A stretch of 64,000 bases of DNA, taken from assembly GCF_025979885.1 (NCBI RefSeq), contig NZ_CP110139.1, positions 1,054,001-1,118,000 on the forward strand. The letters run 5' to 3'. This DNA comes from Hymenobacter sp. YIM 151500-1 (lineage in GTDB: Bacteria; Bacteroidota; Bacteroidia; Cytophagales; Hymenobacteraceae). A program made the position numbers and the translations under genes. The notes below the pieces were generated by a model that was given only the letters and a program-made list of their open reading frames with translations, searched no databases and was not told where the DNA came from. Below, piece after piece: positions 36,653-46,177 of this stretch (position 1 is the stretch's first letter; each line of letters starts with the position of its first letter).

Positions 36653-37291
36653 TTACTCCCGCCGCAAGCCGCTGGCAATAGTAGTGTGCCGCTGGCGCAG
36701 CACCTGCACTACATCCTCGAGCGACAGGCCGGAGGCGGTGAGCAGCACCAGCAAGTGGTACAGCAAATCGGCGGCTTCGCCTTGCAAGCCTTCCCGGTTG
36801 CCGGCTACGGCATCAATCACCGTTTCCACGGCCTCCTCCCCTACTTTCTGGGCAATCTTAGGCAGGCCTTTGCGAAAGAGCGAGGCGGTGTAAGAGTTCG
36901 GGTCTTCGTCGGGGAACTGCTGCCGGCGCTGCACCAGGCGCTCCAGCTCGGCCACGAAGCTCACGGCCGGGGCCGGGTAGGCCATTTGGTCGGGCTGCTC
37001 GAAGCAGCTGGTGGTGCCGCGGTGGCAGGTGGGTCCGTCGGGAATAGCCCGGATGAGCAGGGCGTCTTGGTCACAGTCGGGGTGCTCACTGACCACCGTG
37101 AGGTAGTGGCCCGACGTTTCACCCTTGGTCCAGAGGCGCTGCTTGGAGCGGGAATAGAACGTGACGCGGCCCGTTTGCTGGGTGACGCGCCGGGCCTCCT
37201 CGTTCTGGTAGCCCAGCATGAGCACCTGGCCCGTGTGGGCATCCTGTACAATAACTGGGATAAGCCCATCGGGCATTTTGGCAAAGTCCAT
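36653..37291 (-). CDS. hisIE: Bifunctional phosphoribosyl-AMP cyclohydrolase / phosphoribosyl-ATP pyrophosphatase
   Basis: A 212-residue fusion catalysing steps 2 and 3 of histidine synthesis. The HisI part (1-105) has FYSRSKQRLWTKGETSGH, the metal-site HPDCDQDALL and CHRGTTSCF. The HisE part (about 115-212) has DPNSYTASLFRKG, KIAQKVGEEAVETVIDA and EAADLLYHLLVLL. It is the last gene of the his operon and is separated from hisF by 107 bp that carry an inverted repeat. Confidence 0.97.
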   Translation of the reverse strand: MDFAKMPDGLIPVIVQDAHTGQVLMLGYQNEEARRVTQQTGRVTFYSRSKQRLWTKGETSGHYLTVVSEHPDCDQDALLIRAIPDGPTCHRGTTSCFEQPDQMAYPAPAVSFVAELERLVQRRQQFPDEDPNSYTASLFRKGLPKIAQKVGEEAVETVIDAVAGNREGLQGEAADLLYHLLVLLTASGLSLEDVVQVLRQRHTTIASGLRRE

Positions 37292-37398: not shown

Positions 37399-38157
37399 TT
37401 ACAGCCTAACCGGTATACCGTCCTGGCGCAGGTGTTCCTTCAGCTCCCGGATGCCGATTTCGCCGAAGTGGAAGATACTGGCAGCCAACCCAGCGTCGGC
37501 CTGGGCCTGCTGAAAAACGTGGGTGAAATCCTGCTTGGAACCAGCCCCACCCGAGGCCACCACCGGCACCGACACAGCCCGGCTCACGGCCCCGGTCAGG
37601 TCCAGCGCAAAGCCATCCTTGGTGCCGTCGTTGCTCATGCTGGTGAGCAGGATTTCACCGGCGCCACGGTCGGCGGCCTCCCGGCACCACTGCACGGCGT
37701 CGAGGCCGGTGTTGTGAGTGCCGGCGCGGGTGTAAATCTGCCAGCCTTCCGGCGCGTGGTAGCGGGCATCGGCGGCCACCACAATGCACTGGCTGCCAAA
37801 GCGGGCGGCCAGCTCATCAATCAGCTCGGGCCGGGCCAGGGCGGCAGAGTTGATGCTTACTTTGTCGGCCCCGTTCAGCAGCAGGGCCTCCACGTCGGCT
37901 ACCGTGCCGATGCCCCCGCCCACGGTGAAGGGAATGTCCAGCTCCCGGGCCACGTCGCGCACCAGGGCCACCAGCGTGGCCCGCTTCTGGTTGGTGGCCG
38001 TGATGTCGAGAAACACCAGCTCGTCGGCGCCCTCGCGGGCGTAGCGGGAAGCCAGCGCCACCGGGTCGCCGGCGTCCCGCAGGCCCTCGAAGCGCACCCC
38101 TTTCACCGTGCGCCCGTCCTTCACATCGAGGCAGGGAATGATTCGTTTAGTTAGCAT
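37399..38157 (-). CDS. hisF: Imidazole glycerol phosphate synthase, cyclase subunit
   Basis: A 252-residue TIM-barrel cyclase that with HisH makes IGP and AICAR. The N-terminus [20 protein letters not shown] carries the catalytic D11, and the second half has the matching strand text [15 protein letters not shown]. Phosphate-binding glycines appear in [15 protein letters not shown]. It lies between hisA and hisIE with repeat-filled gaps on both sides. Confidence 0.97.
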
Positions 38158-38290: not shown

Positions 38291-39007
38291 CTACAGCCAG
38301 GGCTGCAACTGCTCCAGGGTAATGGTGCCTTCATAAATAGCTTTGCCGATGATGGCGCCATGCATCCCCATGGCGGCCAGGGCTTCCACGTCGGCCAGGG
38401 TCGTGACGCCGCCGCTGGCAATGAGGCGGGCGGCGGGCAGCTGCTCGCGCAGCTGCTGGTAGGTAGCCACCGACGGCCCCTGGAGCTTGCCATCCTTGCT
38501 TACGTCGGTGCAGATAAAGGTGGTGGCGCCACTGGTCAGGTAATCGGCCACAAACTCCCGCAGGGTCCGCTCACTCTGCTCGGCCCAGGCGTTGATGGCA
38601 ATGTGGTTGTCGCGGTAATCGGCCCCAATAATAACGCGCGCGGCCCCGAACGTCTGCAGCCAGCCGGCTACGGTGGCCGGCTCGCGCACGGCAATGCTGC
38701 CCGCGGTAATCTGCCCGGCGCCAGCGTCGAAGGCCTGCCGCACAGCCTCTTCGCTCTGCAGTCCCCCACCAAAGTCGATGTGCAGGCTCGTGTGGCGGGC
38801 AATGCGCTCCAGCACCGGCAGGTTGACGGGGCGCTTAGCGCGGGCCCCATCCAGGTCGACCAGGTGCAGGCGCCGCACCCCGTGCTGCTCGAAGCGCTGG
38901 GCCACGGCCAGCGGGTCGGCGTCGTAGGTGGTTTGCTGGGCAAAGTCGCCCTCGGTCAGGCGCACACACTGCCCGTTGATAAGGTCAATGGCAGGAATTA
39001 TTTCCAT
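38291..39007 (-). CDS. hisA: ProFAR isomerase
   Basis: A 238-residue TIM-barrel isomerase (step 4). MEIIPAIDLINGQCVRL includes the catalytic D8; the opposite aspartate lies in ICTDVSKDGKLQGP (about residue 168). The half-barrel glycine motifs FGGGLQSEE and ASGGVTTLADVEAL are both present. It lies downstream of hisH, with dispersed repeat copy 2 in the gap. Confidence 0.96.
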   Translation of the reverse strand: MEIIPAIDLINGQCVRLTEGDFAQQTTYDADPLAVAQRFEQHGVRRLHLVDLDGARAKRPVNLPVLERIARHTSLHIDFGGGLQSEEAVRQAFDAGAGQITAGSIAVREPATVAGWLQTFGAARVIIGADYRDNHIAINAWAEQSERTLREFVADYLTSGATTFICTDVSKDGKLQGPSVATYQQLREQLPAARLIASGGVTTLADVEALAAMGMHGAIIGKAIYEGTITLEQLQPWL

Positions 39008-39162: not shown

Positions 39163-39753
39163 TTACAGCTTGAGAAAATTTTCCAGGATGCGGGTGCCGA
39201 CCGGGCCACTCTTTTCGGTGTGGAACTGCACGGCGTAGAAGTTCTGATGCTGCACGGCGGCGCTGAAGGGCGCGGGGTACGTGGCCTGGGCAATGGTGTA
39301 GCTGCCCACCGGGGCGAAGTAGCTATGCACGAAGTACACGTAGTCTTCTTCGCGCAGGTCCTGGAAGAGCGGACCGTGCAGGGCGTGCAGGGTATTCCAG
39401 CCCATGTGCGGCACCTTATACTCCGGCGCCGCCGGAAACCGCACTACGTCGAAAGGCAGGATGCCGAGCAGTTCGGTGCCGCCTCCTTCCTGGGTGTGGC
39501 GCCCCAGCAGCTGCATACCCAGGCAGATACCCAGGAAGGGTTGCGTAAGCGTGGGCAGCAGAGCGTCGAGGCCTTGGGCGCTCAGCTCCCGCATGGCCGA
39601 GGCTGCCTCCCCCTCTCCCGGAAACAGCACCTTGTCGGCCCGCCGGATTACCTCGTGGTCGGCCGTAAGCGTGGCTTGCACCCCCAGGCGCTCCAGGGCA
39701 AACAGCACCGACTGCACGTTGCCGCCTTTGTAGTCTACAATTGCTATTTCCAT
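39163..39753 (-). CDS. hisH: Imidazole glycerol phosphate synthase, glutaminase subunit
   Basis: A 196-residue class I amidotransferase that hydrolyses glutamine and channels ammonia to HisF. The catalytic triad is C77 in LGICLGMQLL with H178 and E180 in VQFHTEKSG. It starts 198 bp after the hisB stop, an unusually wide gap for this pair. That gap holds a 28-bp perfect palindrome and two direct copies of CATTTGAAAAAT. Confidence 0.97.
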   Translation of the reverse strand: MEIAIVDYKGGNVQSVLFALERLGVQATLTADHEVIRRADKVLFPGEGEAASAMRELSAQGLDALLPTLTQPFLGICLGMQLLGRHTQEGGGTELLGILPFDVVRFPAAPEYKVPHMGWNTLHALHGPLFQDLREEDYVYFVHSYFAPVGSYTIAQATYPAPFSAAVQHQNFYAVQFHTEKSGPVGTRILENFLKL

Positions 39754-39951: not shown

Positions 39952-41064
39952 CTACAGAACCCCCTTCGTGCTAGGTATTTCCATGCGGCCGGCGTCGCGC
40001 ACCAACGCCATTTTGATGGACTTGGCTACGGCCTTGAAGATGGCTTCAATTTTATGGTGCTCGTTCTGCCCCTCGGCTTTGATGTTGAGGTTGCAGCGGG
40101 CGGCATCGGAAAAGCTCTTGAAGAAATGGTAAAACATTTCGGTAGGCATGTCCCCTATTTTCTCGCGCTTAAACTCAGCCTCCCACACCAGCCAGGGGCG
40201 GCCTGAGAAGTCGATGGCGGCTTGGGCCAGCACGTCGTCCATGGGCAGTAGGAAGCCGTAGCGGGCCAGGCCGCGCTTGTCGCCCAGGGCCTGAGTGAAG
40301 GCCTCGCCCAGGGCAATGGCCGTGTCTTCGATGGTGTGGTGCTCGTCGATGTGCAGGTCGCCCTGCACGGTGATGCGCATGTCCACGCCGGAGTGCTTGC
40401 TGAGCTGGTCGAGCATGTGGTCGAAGAAGCCCAGGCCGGTGTGCATGTCGGGGCGCCCCTGCCCGTCCAGGTTCAGCTCGATGCGAATCTTGGTTTCGTT
40501 GGTGTCGCGCTGCACTAGGGCGGTGCGGGCCGGCAGGCGCAGAAACTGGTAGATCTTCTCCCAGCTCATGGTCGTCAGGACCGCGCGCGGGTCCCCCTCC
40601 CCTTCCGGCCGGAGCAAGATGGCCTGGCAGCCCAGGTTCTGGGCCAGCTCCACATCGGTCAGCCGGTCGCCGATGACGAAGGAGTTTGGCAGGTCGTAGC
40701 CGCTGGCCTCGCCCAGGTACTGCTGCAACATGCCGGTGCCGGGCTTGCGGGTGGGCAGGTTCTCGTGCGGAAAGCTCCGGTCGATATGCTCCCGCGCAAA
40801 CGCCACGCCTTCCGCGCGCAGCACGTCGAGCATGAGCTGGTGGGCCGGCCAGAAGGTGTCTTCCGGGAAGCTCCCGGTGCCGAGGCCATCCTGGTTGCTG
40901 ACCAGCACCAGCTCATAGTCCAGCTCCCGGGCAATGCGGGCCAGCCCGGTAACAGCGCCCGGCACAAATTGAAACTTGTCCGGCGTCAGCGCGTCAATCT
41001 GCTGGCTGGGCTGGGGCTCGATGAGGATGGTACCGTCACGGTCAATGAAGAGAACTTTTTTCAT
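39952..41064 (-). CDS. hisB: Bifunctional histidinol-phosphatase / imidazoleglycerol-phosphate dehydratase
   Basis: A 370-residue fusion. The N-terminal HAD phosphatase (1-165) has [12 protein letters not shown] with nucleophile D8 and D10, [12 protein letters not shown] and [12 protein letters not shown]. The C-terminal dehydratase (about 178-370) has the metal-binding [17 protein letters not shown] and [16 protein letters not shown]. The ATG at 41064 ([12 protein letters not shown]) is the true start; 15 upstream codons in the frame are not conserved. Confidence 0.97.
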
Positions 41065-41180
41065 GTGTGGGTGTAGCGCAAACTGTTTAGTTCGCACTTG
41101 GTAAGTCAAAGAATGCGTGCCATATGAGCCACTCGCTACTACGGAACTACAACCGACGATCCGCGTAGCTAAAGTTCGCG

Positions 41181-42233
41181 CTACCCTGGAAACTCCCGTA
41201 GCGCCTGCAGCAGTTCCTCGTTTTCCTGAGGCGTGCCCACGGTGAGGCGGAGCGTGCCAGCGCAGCCAGGCTGGGTGGTGCGGTTGCGTACGATGATGCC
41301 GCGGCTCACCAGGTAGTCGTACACGGCCGTAGCGTCGGGGCGGAAGCGCACCAGCAGGAAGTTGGCATCCGAAGGAAACACCTCTTCCACAATATCCACC
41401 GCGGGCAGGCGCTGGGCCAGCCAGTCGCGGCCGGTGAGCAGCTGCTGACGCAGCGCCTCGAAGCGGGGCGCGTCGTGCAGGGCGGCCAGGGCGTGCTGCT
41501 GGGTGGCCGCGGATACGTTGTACGGCGGCTTGATTTTGTTGAGGTAGCCGATGATGGCGGGCGAGGCGAAAGCCATGCCCAGGCGCAGACCGGCCAGGCC
41601 CCAGGCTTTGGAAAAGGTTTGCAGCACTACCAGGTTCGGGAATTCGCTCAGGCGGGTGGTCCAGCTGGGCGCGGCGGCGAAGTCGGCGTAGGCCTCATCT
41701 ACCACCACCAGCCCGCGGAAGCCGCGCAGGATTTCCTCCAGGTACTCGGCGTGGAGCAGGTTGCCGGTGGGGTTGTTGGGCGAGCAGAGCCACACGAGCT
41801 TGGCCTCCGAAGCCAGCACCCCGGCCACGATGTCGGGCGAGAGCTGGAAATCCGGGGTCAGCGGCAGGCGCTCCACCCGCACGTCGTTGAGGTTGGCGGC
41901 CACCTCGTACATGCCGTAGGTGGGCGGCAGGATGAGTAGGCTGTCCTGGCCCGGCGTACAGGTCAGGCGCACCAGCAAGTCAATGGCCTCGTCGGAGCCG
42001 TTGCCGAGGAAGATTTGCTCGGGACGGACGCCCTTCAGCCGGGCCAGCTCCTGCTTCACGGCCCGCTGCAAAGGGTCGGGGTAACGGTTGAACCGGTCGG
42101 GGCCGGCGCTGCCGAGGCTGTTCTCGTTGGCGTCGAGCATGACCTGGGCCTCGCCCTGGAATTCGTCGCGGGCCGACGAGTACGGTTTCATAGCCCGAAT
42201 ATTGGGCCGCACAAGGCTAGCAAGGTTGAACAT
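41181..42233 (-). CDS. hisC: Histidinol-phosphate aminotransferase
   Basis: A 350-residue fold-type I PLP aminotransferase. The PLP lysine is K209 in [16 protein letters not shown]; other landmarks are [20 protein letters not shown] and [10 protein letters not shown]. It transfers the amino group from glutamate to imidazole-acetol phosphate. It sits between hisD and hisB. The hisD-hisC gap contains a C-rich/G-rich inverted repeat. Confidence 0.97.
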
Positions 42234-42249
42234 AAATCACGGATTTAGG

Positions 42250-42422
42250 ACCCCACCCCAACCCTCCCCAAAAGATGCCGCGCATCAAGCGGGAGGGGCT
42301 TATTTTACTTTGGCAACGAATCAGCATTGCCATGAAAAAGCGGTAGGGTTTAATGAGAGAAACGAACTGTCGTTGTGATGCTATTCTAAGCCCCTCCCTG
42401 TTGGGCAGGGGTTGGGGTGGGG
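42250..42422. repeat. C-rich/G-rich inverted repeat, one arm inside the 3' end of hisD
   Basis: CCCCACCCCAACCC (from 42250) is matched by GGGTTGGGGTGGGG (to 42422). A second pair, GGGAGGGGCTTA and TAAGCCCCTCCC, lies inside. The right arm overlaps hisD codons upstream of its stop at 42386. Confidence 0.75.
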
Positions 42423-43717
42423 TTCCCGCCAGCCAACGCCTCCAGGCGGAGCGTGACGGCGCGGGCGTGGGCGCGGAGGCCTTCGGCTTCGGCCATGGTT
42501 TCGACTACGGGACCCAGGTGGCGCAGGCCTTCGGGGGTGAGGCGCTGGAAGGTGATTTTCTTCAGGAAAGAATCCAGCGACACGCCGCTATAGTTGCGGG
42601 CGTAGCCGTTGGTGGGCAACGTATGGTTGGTGCCCGAGGCGTAGTCGCCGACGGCTTCGGGCGTAAGGTGGCCCAGAAACACCGAGCCGGCGCTGGTGAT
42701 GCTCTCGGCCAGCTGCTCGGGGTTGCGCACGGCCAGAATCAGGTGTTCGGGGGCGTACTGGTTCGAGAAGTAGAGCATTTCCTCCGGAGTACGCAGCAGA
42801 ATGGCCCGGCTTTCCGTCAGGGCCTGAGCAGCTACTTCGGCCCGGGGCAGCTCGCGCAGCTGCCGTTCTACCTCTTGCATTGTCCTCTCCAGCACCTCCG
42901 GCGAATCCGACAGCAAGATAACCTGGGAGTCGGGGCCGTGCTCGGCCTGGCTGAGCAGGTCGGCGGCCACGAAGGCGGGGCTAGCTGAGCTGTCGGCAAT
43001 GATGAGCACTTCGGACGGGCCGGCCGGCATGTCGATGGCCACGCCGTAGCGGGTGGCCAGCTGCTTGGCGGCCGTGACGTAGCGGTTGCCGGGCCCGAAA
43101 ATTTTGTCTACGGCCGGTACCGATTCGGTGCCCCCGCTAAGGGCGGCCACGGCCTGGGCCCCGCCGGCTTTCACAATGGTGGTAATGCCGAGCAGCTGGG
43201 CCGTGAACAGGATAACCGGGTGTACCGAGCCATCCGGCTGCGGGGGCGTGCAGAGCACAATATCGGGGCAGCCGGCCAGGCGGGCCGGCACGCCCAGCAT
43301 AAGCAAGGTGCTAAACAGAGGCGCCGTGCCGCCCGGAATGTAGAGGCCCACCCGCTGCACCGGCACCGCCCGGCGCCAGCACGTCACGCCCGGCATGGTC
43401 TCGACGCGTTCCTCCTGGGGCACCTGGGCTTTGTGAAACCGCAGAATGTTGGCCTGGGCCTGGCGAATGGCAGTTTGCAGCGCGGCCGGCACCTGGGCCG
43501 CGGCCGCCGCTAGCTCCTCCGGCCCCACGCGCAGGCCCTGGGCTAGCTCCACCCCGTCGAAGCGGCGCGTGTAGTCGAGCAGGGCCGCGTCGCCGCGCTG
43601 GCGCACATCGTCGAAAATCTGCTGCACGCGCTGCTCCACGTCCTGGGCCTGCTGCTGCATGGCCCGCTGCTGCAAAGCCGCCCACTCGGCCTGGGCTGGG
43701 TAGTGAATAAGTTGCAT
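42386..43717 (-). CDS. hisD: Histidinol dehydrogenase
   Basis: A 443-residue zinc enzyme doing the last two oxidations to histidine. Conserved blocks include VGLYIPGGTAPLFSTLLML, VPAVDKIFGPGNRYVTAAK, DMPAGPSEVLIIAD, and the zinc/catalytic region QAEHGPDSQ and YAPEHL. The C-terminal tail (NPTPTPAQQGGA) is encoded by one arm of a G/C-rich repeat and is not part of the usual fold. It is the second gene of the operon. Confidence 0.97.
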   Translation of the reverse strand: MQLIHYPAQAEWAALQQRAMQQQAQDVEQRVQQIFDDVRQRGDAALLDYTRRFDGVELAQGLRVGPEELAAAAAQVPAALQTAIRQAQANILRFHKAQVPQEERVETMPGVTCWRRAVPVQRVGLYIPGGTAPLFSTLLMLGVPARLAGCPDIVLCTPPQPDGSVHPVILFTAQLLGITTIVKAGGAQAVAALSGGTESVPAVDKIFGPGNRYVTAAKQLATRYGVAIDMPAGPSEVLIIADSSASPAFVAADLLSQAEHGPDSQVILLSDSPEVLERTMQEVERQLRELPRAEVAAQALTESRAILLRTPEEMLYFSNQYAPEHLILAVRNPEQLAESITSAGSVFLGHLTPEAVGDYASGTNHTLPTNGYARNYSGVSLDSFLKKITFQRLTPEGLRHLGPVVETMAEAEGLRAHARAVTLRLEALAGGNPTPTPAQQGGA

Positions 43718-43722
43718 CTAGG

Positions 43723-43837
43723 TTAGAAGTGAGATGTTAGAAGCGAGAAGTGAGACTTGGTTCGGCGTCAGTAGGGCGAAGCATGCAGTGTAGTAAAACG
43801 ATTCTCACTTCTCATGTCTCGCCTCTCACTTCTCAAC
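43723..43837. repeat. Imperfect inverted repeat (AGAAGTGAGA words) between hisG and hisD
   Basis: The left part 43723-43757 carries AGAAGTGAGATGTTAGAAGC and GAGAAGTGAGA. The right part 43802-43837 carries TCTCACTTCTCATGTCTCGC and CTCTCACTTCTCAA. A perfect 13-bp version of the same word pair occurs at 62783-62825. Confidence 0.6.
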
Positions 43838-44684
43838 TAATCATTTTCTCAATGGGCAGCACCAGGATGCCTTCGGCGCCGACGGCTTTGAGCTGGCCGG
43901 TGATGTGCCAGAAGTCGTCCTCGTTCACCACCGACTGCACCGACACCCAGCCTTCCTCGGCCAGGGGCGTAACGGTGGGCGACTTGATGCCGGGCAGCAG
44001 GGCCTTTACCGCGTCGAGGGCGGCTGCGGGGGCGTTCAGCAGGATGTATTTGTTGCGGCGGGCCCGGCGCACGGCCTGCATCCGAAACTGCAACTGCTCC
44101 AGCAGCTCCCGCTTCTCGGCCGTCAGCTGTTGGTGGGCAATGAGCACAGCTTCGGAGCGAAACACGGTTTCTACCTCGCGCAGGCCGTTGCCGAGCAGCG
44201 TGGAGCCGCTGCTCACAATGTCGCAGATAGCCTCGGCCAGCCCGATGCTGGGGGCAATTTCCACCGAGCCGCTGATGGTGTGCAGGTGGGCCTCCACGCC
44301 CCGCTCCCGCAGGTAAGCGCCCAGAATCTGCGGGTACGAGGTGGCCACGTTCTTGCCGTGCAGGTCCGCCACCGAGTCGTAGGCGGCGGCGCGGGGCACG
44401 GCCAGGCTCAGGCGGCACTTGCTGAAACCCAGGCCTTCCAGCTCCAAGTGGGGCAAACCAGCCTCCACCAGCACGTTCTGGCCCACGATGCCCAGGTCGG
44501 CCACGCCATCCTGCACGTAGCCGGGAATGTCGTCGTCGCGCAGGTAGAGGATTTCCAGGGGGAAGTTGGTGGCTTCGGTTTTGAGCTTGTAGGACGAGCT
44601 AAGGAAGCTAATGCCGCATTCCCGAATCAGGTTCAGGGAATCTTCGCTGAGGCGGCCCGATTTCTGGATGGCCAGACGGAGCAT
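43833..44684 (-). CDS. hisG: ATP phosphoribosyltransferase, long form
   Basis: A 283-residue enzyme of the first, committed step. The N-terminal catalytic text is LRLAIQKSGRLSEDSLNLI, with the phosphate-binding DIVSSGSTLLGNGLREVE. The C-terminal ~75 residues (IKSPTVTPLAEEGWVSVQSV to EGILVLPIEKMI) are the ACT-like regulatory domain of the long form, so feedback inhibition by histidine is expected and no HisZ is needed. It is the first structural gene of the operon. A His-rich leader ORF lies 205 bp upstream, pointing to transcriptional attenuation as a second control. Confidence 0.97.
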   Translation of the reverse strand: MLRLAIQKSGRLSEDSLNLIRECGISFLSSSYKLKTEATNFPLEILYLRDDDIPGYVQDGVADLGIVGQNVLVEAGLPHLELEGLGFSKCRLSLAVPRAAAYDSVADLHGKNVATSYPQILGAYLRERGVEAHLHTISGSVEIAPSIGLAEAICDIVSSGSTLLGNGLREVETVFRSEAVLIAHQQLTAEKRELLEQLQFRMQAVRRARRNKYILLNAPAAALDAVKALLPGIKSPTVTPLAEEGWVSVQSVVNEDDFWHITGQLKAVGAEGILVLPIEKMIS

Positions 44685-44688
44685 GTCT

Positions 44689-44889
44689 AATTAATTAAAA
44701 ATTAAGAATTAGGAATTAAAAATTGGCCGGTGGTTGGGCCGCTTAATTCTAATTCGGAATCGGGTGGTGAGGGCAGGGAGCAGACCCAGCGTTGGGGGTG
44801 GCCATGTGCTGGCCGGGCCACCGGTTTGCGGGGGCCGGCCAGCCACGGTGCGGCTTGCCCAACGGGGTCAATATGATGCGTGCATTCCT
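44689..44889 (-). promoter_or_regulatory. Candidate his attenuator region between leader ORF and hisG
   Basis: Minus-strand stems: GCTGGCCGG (44843-44835) with CCGGCCAGC (44816-44808), and the competing GGTGGCC (44822-44816) with GGCCACC (44803-44797). They share bases, so only one can form. Closer to hisG, GGCC (44740-44737) pairs with GGCC (44728-44725), followed by AATTTTTAATT, a weak terminator-like element. Function is inferred from the position behind the His-rich leader. Confidence 0.55.
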
Positions 44890-45024
44890 CTAGAAAGAGG
44901 AATGATGCCCGTGGTGATGGTGATGCTTCGGCTGCTGCGACGCGCACAGCCCGGCCTGGCGGCGGCCCGCTGCGGGGGCGGCCGGGTGGCACTGGGGGCT
45001 CAGAAAAAGCGCGGAGCAAAGCAT
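44890..45024 (-). CDS. Histidine-rich leader peptide of the his operon (candidate)
   Basis: A 44-codon ORF, ATG at 45024 and TAG at 44890. Near its end it reads PKHHHHHGHHSSF: seven His codons within eight (44925-44902, CAT/CAC mixed). A -7 box TACATTTG (45054-45047) lies 22 bp upstream, giving an expected short 5' UTR. The stop codon sits inside a 9-bp hairpin (CATTCCTCT with AGAGGAATG, 44904-44883) that also includes the last His codon. A ribosome stalling at the His run when charged tRNA-His is scarce would change folding of the following 200 nt before hisG, as in enterobacterial hisL. The N-terminal two thirds are unremarkable. A chance run of seven His codons exactly here is very unlikely. 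Confidence 0.72.
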   Translation of the reverse strand: MLCSALFLSPQCHPAAPAAGRRQAGLCASQQPKHHHHHGHHSSF

Positions 45025-45046
45025 ACGGGGCTGGCGGATAGCGGGG

Positions 45047-45054
45047 CAAATGTA
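45047..45054 (-). promoter_or_regulatory. -7 element of the his operon leader
   Basis: TACATTTG read on the minus strand (CAAATGTA on plus) is a perfect TAnnTTTG match, 22 bp before the leader ATG. A pyrimidine-rich TTTTTCATC lies about 20 bp further upstream at the -33 position. It is back-to-back with a TACTTTG box (45095-45101) for the rightward DUF2911 gene. Confidence 0.55.
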
Positions 45055-45214
45055 CACCCCGATCCGGAAGATGAAAATTTTTCGGGAAGAATTTTACTTT
45101 GCCTCCCCACCTTTACGTTTCCGATGCCCCGCCACTGCAAAGTTGGCATTATTGTTTCAGAAACCGCCGAAGCCTGACGCGGTCCGCTGCTTTCCTTTCT
45201 CACGCCTCTTGCCT

Positions 45215-46177
45215 ATGCGTTTTGCCCGGTTTTCAGCCCGTTGGGGGCTGGGAGTAACTATCCTGCTGGCCTGCTCGGCCCCAGCCTGGGCCCAGAGTCC
45301 GGCCCCGACCAGCCCTGCTCCCCAGGAGCCCACGGCCACCCCGGCGGCCCCTGCTGCCCCGGCCAGCGGGCAACCGGTGCAGTTGCCTTTGCCCCAGGCC
45401 AGCCCGCGCGCCGTGGTTACCCAGACCTTCGGCCTGACGGAGGTAACAGTGGACTACCACGCGCCTTCCGTGCGGGGCCGGACGATCTGGGGCAACCTGG
45501 TGCCCTACGAGCAGGTATGGCGGGCCGGAGCCAACGAAAACACGCTCATCCGCTTTTCTACCCCGGTGCTGCTGCGGGGCCAGACCATTCCGGCCGGGCA
45601 GTACTCGTTTTTTGTGGTGCCCCACCAGGAGCGGGAATGGGAGCTGGTGCTCAACCGCGTCACCACCCACTGGGGCACCGAGGGCTACCAGGCCGCCCAG
45701 GACATCGTTCGGGTGCCGGTGATGCCCGAAACGGCGCCGTTTCACGAGAACCTGCTGTACTGGTTTTCCGACATCAAGCCCACCGGCGCCCACCTCAACC
45801 TGACCTGGGAAAAGCGCACCCTCACCCTGCTTATCGAAACCGACGTGCACAACCAGGTGCTGGCCGGCATCGAGCAGGTGCTCCAGCAAAACCCCGGCAA
45901 CTGGCAGCTGCTGGCCCAGGCCGCCGACTACCTGGTGCAAAACAACCTCCAGCCCGAGCGCGCCCTCACTTACATTAACGAGTCCATCAAGCTTCAGGAC
46001 GCGGCCACCAACAACTGGATTAAGGCCCGCCTGCTGGCCCAGCAGCAAGACTTCGGCACGGCCATCGTGTACGCCCGCCGGGCCATCAAGCTCGGCGACA
46101 AGGAAGACACTGCCTTCAAGTCTCAGCTGCCCAACATGCGCATCGCCCTCACCGAGTGGCAGGCCAAGGCGTACTGA
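45215..46177 (+). CDS. DUF2911 domain-containing secreted protein
   Basis: A 320-residue protein from the ATG at 45215 (MRFARFSARWGLGVTILLAC). The signal peptide ends near APAWA-Q, followed by a Pro/Ala-rich linker (about 28-60). The DUF2911 domain (about 62-210) shows VTVDYHAPSVRGRTIWGNLVPYE-type text, WRAGANENTLIRFSTPV and GQYSFFVVP. The remainder is helical and TPR-like (LQPERALTYINESIKLQD, AIVYARRAIKLGDKED). The function of the family is unknown. A TACTTTG box at 45095-45101 may be its promoter, back-to-back with that of the his leader. Confidence 0.87.
   Translation: MRFARFSARWGLGVTILLACSAPAWAQSPAPTSPAPQEPTATPAAPAAPASGQPVQLPLPQASPRAVVTQTFGLTEVTVDYHAPSVRGRTIWGNLVPYEQVWRAGANENTLIRFSTPVLLRGQTIPAGQYSFFVVPHQEREWELVLNRVTTHWGTEGYQAAQDIVRVPVMPETAPFHENLLYWFSDIKPTGAHLNLTWEKRTLTLLIETDVHNQVLAGIEQVLQQNPGNWQLLAQAADYLVQNNLQPERALTYINESIKLQDAATNNWIKARLLAQQQDFGTAIVYARRAIKLGDKEDTAFKSQLPNMRIALTEWQAKAY

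Follow-up and report, generated by a model that had tools for sequence, protein, structure and literature searches.

Attenuation of histidine biosynthesis operons is a classical form of control. In Firmicutes, his attenuators have been proposed whose leader peptides carry three to five His codons, according to the accessible part of PMC9413887, in which the string "bacteroid" gave 0 hits. For Bacteroidota, the accessible text of PMC9723704 describes strong indications that amino acid operons of Flavobacterium psychrophilum are attenuated through leader peptides encoded upstream, as well as a structured element upstream of hisG that is conserved in Flavobacteriaceae and has no Rfam hit. Bacteroid-trp RNA (RF01692), by its name a trp element, is listed as a candidate cis-regulatory RNA of Bacteroidetes in the portion of PMC2864571 available to us, and "leader" gave 0 hits in the corresponding portion of PMC8305728, which treats the his genes of this superphylum. 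Experimental his attenuation in Bacteroidota was not found in the open-access literature searched. The original prediction for the present locus knew of no well-established example in this phylum; this stands for experiments, as far as the literature searched shows, but leader-peptide attenuation is already known as a proposal for this phylum, in F. psychrophilum (PMC9723704, accessible text). As far as the open-access literature searched extends, a phylum-wide series of his leaders with alternative pairings is new, as are lineages in which the terminator was not found.

Here we describe a His-rich leader upstream of hisG in Hymenobacter sp. YIM 151500-1, within the 64,000-nucleotide stretch of DNA that was analyzed as a whole (the window). 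Judged from sequence comparisons, His-dependent control of some kind by this leader peptide is highly probable. A ribosome-sensed peptide that controls the his operon via three RNA hairpins in the spacer (hairpins 1 to 3) is the reading that we consider probable.

A histidine-rich leader before hisG

The his operon behind the leader is complete, and the divergent neighbor on the plus strand encodes a DUF2911 protein. The features of the leader and the operon are as follows.

45047..45054, minus strand: -7 box of the promoter for the leader (TACATTTG), 22 nt from box to ATG
44890..45024, minus strand: His-rich leader ORF, 44 codons, the coordinates also covering the stop (ATG at 45024, TAG at 44892-44890, read directly)
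44902..44925, minus strand: His run, seven His in eight codons (read directly)
44685..44889, minus strand: spacer from leader to hisG, without a recognizable U-tract terminator (consensus, strict, and long-loop scans)
43833..44684, minus strand: hisG, long form carrying the regulatory C-terminal domain HisG_C
42386..43717, minus strand: hisD
41181..42233, minus strand: hisC
39952..41109, minus strand: hisB, bifunctional, start codon uncertain
39163..39753, minus strand: hisH
38291..39007, minus strand: hisA
37399..38157, minus strand: hisF
36653..37291, minus strand: hisIE

Direct reading of the minus strand bore out the original prediction of a 44-codon ORF with a TACATTTG box upstream of hisG on the same strand, of seven His codons within eight, and, through the HisG_C domain, of a long-form HisG. 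The peptide ends in KHHHHHGHHSSF-stop, and a GTG at 45057 is a further possible opening of the frame. From leader stop to hisG start (44684), the distance is 205 nt. If the box occupies -12 to -5, the placement given for F. psychrophilum in the accessible text of PMC9723704, the transcript is predicted to start near 45042, with a 5' untranslated region of approximately 18 nt.

The His density lies far above what chance would provide. In the 4.9-Mb genome, the leader holds the sole instance of the pattern (CAY)5-NNN-(CAY)2. As a measure of chance, 600-nt stretches were scored by the highest number of His per 10 codons across three frames. None of the other 836 tiles of the window had a value of at least 6, nor did any of 2292 tiles from the related loci described below (80 loci); a value of 5 was seen in 19 and 5 tiles, respectively. 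Among the upstream regions of hisG (the window plus the best 80 of 552 loci), 40 of 81 had at least 6, 70 had at least 5, and 80 had at least 4, with locus L036 at 3. The ORF before hisG is a genuine leader peptide.

The related loci were the best 80 of 552 hisG loci (single loci are labeled with L numbers) and belong to Hymenobacter, Solirubrum, Pontibacter, Rufibacter, and Adhaeribacter, all of which we take to be Hymenobacteraceae. Within this sample of the best 80, the nearest named hisG loci are from Hymenobacter (94% identity). Absence of the leader from relatives, named in the original prediction as evidence against it, was looked for; a recognizable His-rich leader was present at the same place in all 80 (best 80 of 552), the poorest being that of L036 (3 His in 10 codons). 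The N termini of the leaders diverge among the 80 relatives, while the place before hisG is kept. With the window included, the loci were sorted by eye into clades A (30 loci of Hymenobacter, including that of the window), B (6), C (11), D (8), E (Pontibacter, 19), R (Rufibacter, 5), and F (Adhaeribacter, 2).

In silico, 73 of 81 loci (the window and the best 80 of 552) have an exact TAnnTTTG box in front of an in-frame ATG, i.e., 29/30, 6/6, 11/11, 8/8, 12/19, 5/5, and 2/2 loci of clades A, B, C, D, E, R, and F, respectively. The distance from the -7 box to the leader ATG is 6 to 8 nt in loci of clades C and D (L033-L042, L044-L051, and L053), so that the leader ORF would be almost leaderless there; with the box at -12 to -5, the predicted 5' untranslated region in these clades is 2 to 4 nt. 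Substitutions among the leaders have a modest coding-like pattern: in 73 pairs of equal-length leaders, third positions vary most (526 versus 387 and 326). One conserved His of clade A is written CAT in 14 loci and CAC in 16 (CAT in 28 and CAC in 2 at the next His).

Further boxes were observed between leader and hisG. A second TATCTTTG box lies approximately 38 nt before hisG in Rufibacter (L072, L075, L076, and L080) and approximately 17 nt before it in Adhaeribacter (L055 and L070), a possible hisG promoter independent of the attenuator. In Pontibacter (e.g., L064, L065, and L071), a recurrent TAC[T/G]TTGC sits within a small hairpin approximately 50 nt past the leader stop and matches the TAnnTTGY box (SM5) given in the accessible text of PMC9723704.

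Spacer hairpins and the search for a terminator

Four elements follow or overlap the end of the His run.

44883..44904, minus strand: hairpin 1, whose loop holds the first stop codon base and whose 3' arm holds the other two
44864..44875, minus strand: conserved CAUAUUGACCCC motif (from alignments)
44837..44860, minus strand: hairpin 2, all four inner pairs having changes on both sides (27 rows)
44816..44836, minus strand: hairpin 3, three of eight pairs having changes on both sides

The folding score of hairpin 1 has a mean z of -5.1 in clade A, where 29 of 30 loci are below -2, as are 19 of 19 Pontibacter loci. Scores below -2 for a hairpin anchored at the stop were obtained in 0/6 loci of clade B, 0/8 of D, 0/2 of F, 2/11 of C, and 1/5 of R; clade B has a hairpin upstream of a later stop codon, and clades C and D have larger stems at that place. 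Because six of the eight pairs of hairpin 1 never vary in clade A, its support comes from energy and conservation. A CAUAUUG-C-rich motif is likewise conserved in this clade.

Hairpins 2 and 3 are supported by covariation. In the 27 of 30 clade A rows that were counted (L006, L011, and L012 are absent from the alignment, and the structure was drawn from the same sequences), 93.5% of paired cells can pair versus 87.9 in shuffles. Eight pairs are changed on both sides, giving 36 such cells versus 11.9 in shuffles, and the covariation score is 0.192 versus 0.107, with 0 of 500 shuffles as high. Further pair types were not above the shuffles (18 versus 18.5). Neither the alignments nor the strict and long-loop scans established structures that exclude one another in clade A; a candidate CCC/GGG antiterminator before hairpin 2 is almost invariant there. 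Bacteroidota rarely use Shine-Dalgarno initiation. Pairing of AGAGGAAU with 16S rRNA was an idea that was considered and set aside.

One alternative to a terminator-free switch is a classical intrinsic terminator that is merely hard to recognize, formed by hairpin 3 or by the AT-rich palindrome GGCC..GGCC-AAUUUUU, with hairpin 2 or 1 taking part in an antiterminator. We regard it as possible but doubtful. The consensus scan found no terminator-like site on the his strand of the window, its single match being on the plus strand. A folding-energy scan was rejected as terminator evidence: it gave a mean of -11.6 in clade A versus -8.2 in shuffles and is uninformative in GC-rich sequence, so stricter scans (strict and long-loop) were used. 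The window does contain GGCC-loop-GGCC-AAUUUUUAAUU, found in the sequence and by the energy scan and ending approximately 40 nt before hisG, but this palindrome is part of a dispersed repeat. The match of the energy scan in the window, with a U tail 27 nt before hisG, lies inside the dispersed AT-rich repeat and was not counted. The repeat before hisG (window positions 44690-44765) has 24 further partial copies in the genome, and five sets occur as inverted pairs approximately 35 to 175 bp apart, a MITE-like arrangement.

In clade A, the strict U-tract scan matched 4 of 30 loci, which is shuffle level (4.0 of 20 shuffles equally good). Matches in clades C (6/11) and D (5/8) and in Pontibacter (7/19, 0.7 of 20 shuffles) favor the intrinsic terminator; the remaining clades had 2/6 (B), 0/5 (R), and 0/2 (F). 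The long-loop scan weighs against it, with 10 of 30 clade A loci matched versus a shuffle rate of 0.19, the window not being among them, and, with shuffle rates in parentheses, 0/6 in B (0.40), 4/11 in C (0.39), 5/8 in D (0.47), 1/19 in E (0.03), 0/5 in R (0.13), and 1/2 in F (0.03; the match is L055).

The same long-loop rule found terminators behind the leaders of other operons. As positive controls, trp leaders of the family matched in 15 of 15 cases (shuffle rate, 0.12; 15 of the 30 trpE loci L180-L209 were entered), and thr leaders of the genus matched in 7 of 7 (shuffle rate, 0.26). The latter are 7 of 10 thrA-type loci (the own locus and nine of the genus), from which L215, L216, and L217 were excluded because they lack a Thr-rich frame. 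The absence of a terminator in clade A is therefore not due to GC content alone.

These control leaders carry their own cognate residues. Two or more Trp per 10 codons were present upstream of trpE in all 30 loci, for several of them in multiple frames (a count without a chance estimate); the leaders are of types such as QQAWWWP, LWWWHGR, and AGWWHLLE. The trp leader of the own genome (L180, contig C1 near 1709560) reads MTFSTAQQAWWWPYGESGRDNLCVQ, followed by a AAGCCCGGC..GCCGGGCTTTTTT terminator. A Thr-rich frame was found in 7 of the 10 thrA-type loci (the own L176 and others including L210-L214 and L218; again without a chance estimate). The own leader (L176, C1 near 3732970) ends in TGTGTPVTTTR-stop, has the long-loop terminator GCCCGC..GCGGGTTTTT, and precedes an aspartokinase-type gene with an open frame of 844 codons. 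LeuA had only a weak partial match in the own genome. Positions 290-426 of L210 match RF02901 (Aggregatibacter sRNA 41) on both strands (E values of 1e-11 and 2e-10, below the gathering score), which probably reflects inverted-repeat sequence.

Outside clade A, some relatives have terminator-like hairpins, which also count toward the intrinsic alternative. Pontibacter and Rufibacter seem to occupy an intermediate state. In these two genera, a compact GC hairpin of 4 to 7 bp with compensatory changes and a U-rich tail (mean, 5.0 U in 10) is present in 24 of 24 loci, a figure obtained from a GGG seed without a shuffle control. GCCC or GUCC stands directly before it, the alignment being off by one in several rows, and could be a competitor for the 5' arm of the hairpin. 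In Adhaeribacter, L070 and L055 have a terminator-like stem that shares one arm with hairpin 1 (GAGGAAUAAU..AUUAUUCCUC-AUUUUU in L070). Taken with the Pontibacter and Rufibacter hairpins, these stems make it likely that the leader had an ancestral terminator.

Histidine leaders in other Bacteroidota families

A HisG match was obtained in 252 of 296 Bacteroidota genomes. From the 249 other genomes with such a match, we chose 107 loci outside the family of the window (families other than that of the window are labeled f2 to f50), favoring strong HisG matches and different genera among the matches listed and excluding L082 and L083, which are of the same genus; the upstream 600 nt of each was analyzed. 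In 84 of the 107 loci, a frame that stops no more than 320 nt from hisG holds at least 4 His per 10 codons; 23 fell below. Six further f7 loci have three His per 10 codons. No leader reached this threshold in f17 (0/3, for a large group of weak HisG matches represented by three loci only), f18 (0/3), f47 (0/2), f14 (0/2), f25 (0/1), f37 (0/1), or f38 (0/1). The leader peptides differ in sequence in other families, yet they are again His rich and located before hisG.

Many of these leaders precede an ordinary terminator. A strict U-tract terminator lies between leader and hisG in all loci examined of f7 (17/17), f16 (9/9), f5 (8/8), f8 (5/5), f34 (5/5), f6 (2/2), and f11 (2/2); f2 (4/7), f29 (3/4), f23 (5/18), and f4 (0/7) are mixed or lack it. 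At least half of the loci have one in 16 of the 23 families having a leader, several of the 23 being single loci. The end of the leader pairs with the 5' arm of the terminator at a P value of ≤0.05 versus shuffles in 15/17 loci of f7, 6/9 of f16, 5/8 of f5, 2/5 of f8, 2/5 of f34, 2/2 of f6, 0/2 of f11, and 0/3 of f29. By eye, leader CTCAAGCG stands opposite terminator CGTTTGAG in L104, and leader GGGTAAGC stands opposite terminator GCTTACCC in L106. The antiterminator pair is thus rebuilt with other letters in another family. Terminator and leader-end pairing in these families are, as read from their sequences, the classical design.

Spacer composition follows this division in part. In the 7 families mostly without a strict terminator, C minus G is 0.06 to 0.17, and in the 16 families with terminators it is -0.07 to 0.16, mostly close to 0 or negative (P = 0.0027 for family means, taking families as independent and disregarding relatedness). 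The f23 spacers have a mean G of 0.09 and a C minus G of 0.155 (18 loci, 5 with a strict terminator match).

A proposed route from ribosome position to operon control

We propose that transcription would begin from a sigma-A promoter, approximately 18 nt ahead of the leader ATG. A shortage of charged tRNA-His would make the ribosome stall in the His run, whereas with an ample supply the ribosome would reach the stop codon within hairpin 1 and open this hairpin. The position of the ribosome would thereby alter the folding or exposure of the 205-nt spacer RNA with hairpins 1 to 3, and the state of this RNA would set the amount of transcript or translation that reaches hisG. The output may be premature termination without a canonical U-tract, via Rho, another factor, or a U-poor GC hairpin. 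We infer the stalling, the histidine response, and the output step. Termination is the most likely output because leaders of this kind stand before ordinary terminators in other families of Bacteroidota. For Hymenobacter sp. YIM 151500-1, a transcriptional output seems reasonably likely. As a first guess, noncanonical termination comes first, with cryptic intrinsic and Rho-dependent termination given about equal weight, and translational control stands behind. The ribosome-mediated attenuation claimed in the original prediction stands in part: the conserved, promoter-proximal His leader before a complete his operon argues for it, but a U-tract terminator and antiterminator went undetected in clade A.

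Rho-dependent attenuation, in which Rho would load on the C-rich spacer after ribosome release and a stalled ribosome would change hairpin 1 or block loading, has a limited likelihood, much like a hidden intrinsic terminator. The C-over-G bias of families mostly without a strict terminator and the low G of the f23 spacers speak for it, although the f23 values are raw spacer compositions. The best 60 nt of the window spacer reach a C minus G of 0.30, but 4 of 37 control upstream regions in the window have an equal excess of C, and the terminator-bearing trp spacers go up to 0.35. Composition thus does not single out Rho in the window and was rejected as evidence when taken alone. A ribosome stalled upstream would also leave more naked RNA, so that the polarity of this scheme needs an extra step.

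Translational control, in which translation of the leader would open or close the start region of hisG or reinitiation would feed ribosomes to it, is improbable. Clade A has no detectable terminator, as this scheme would have it, and attenuators that sequester ribosome-binding sites are described in general terms in the accessible part of PMC9413887. However, the hisG start in the window is AT rich and largely unpaired in the predicted fold, and the 205 nt between leader stop and hisG compares with a peak at 11 to 14 nt for Bacteroidetes leaders in the available text of PMC4833913.

His-rich tails can bind metals, but it is very improbable that the leader is a small metal-binding protein, or its His run a product of chance, with no part in his control, given that the place before hisG is kept in 80 of 80 relatives (best 80 of 552) despite N-terminal divergence, that the differing peptides of other families are still His rich before hisG, often with a terminator, and that trp and thr leaders carry their own cognate residues.

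Within the preferred reading of a ribosome-sensed His leader, we tentatively offer a more specific version, itself doubtful: the Hymenobacter leader may have lost its intrinsic terminator, and the stop-codon hairpin may report completion of the peptide and gate Rho-type termination in the C-rich spacer, perhaps separately in f4 and f23. If so, one genome would run two kinds of attenuation, with U-tract terminators for trp and thr and a terminator-free form for his.

In tnaC and mgtL, a ribosome on a short ORF decides Rho-dependent termination without an intrinsic terminator. The present leader resembles such switches in having a short ORF without a recognizable intrinsic terminator, the Rho part being hypothetical here.

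Searches of Rfam gave no counterpart. RF00514 (His_leader) had no match in the window at the gathering score, nor at an E value of ≤5 in 44600-45240. RF01692 had none in the window and none in 11 further loci searched at an E value of ≤0.1. Among these 11, neither this nor any other Rfam family matched four trpE loci or six hisG loci of relatives (L058, L070, L104, L106, L146, and L168) at an E value of ≤0.1.

The leader system is a usable test of transcription-translation coupling in Bacteroidota. Many families combine this kind of leader with an ordinary terminator, and others have the leader but no such terminator; among the latter is a genome whose ordinary trp and thr attenuators are kept. 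This natural series lends itself to asking how ribosome position becomes gene control without an intrinsic terminator.

Compared with the F. psychrophilum candidates described in the accessible text of PMC9723704, the phylum, the gene, and the proposed principle are the same, and neither has an Rfam hit; the clade of the window differs in lacking a recognizable terminator, a comparison made by description. The Firmicutes his attenuators, as presented in the accessible part of PMC9413887, likewise have leader peptides with His codons before his genes, but they have terminator and antiterminator hairpins, whereas the clade of the window has no recognizable terminator. The enterobacterial hisL attenuator (RF00514) differs from the Hymenobacter clade, in which no U-tract terminator was detected, the promoter is of the Bacteroidota type, and the predicted 5' untranslated region is approximately 18 nt. 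It is alike in its short ORF with a run of His codons, on the same strand and directly before hisG, and in a long-form HisG that adds control at the enzyme level. His leader-peptide control would extend from the described proteobacterial and Firmicutes groups to much of Bacteroidota.
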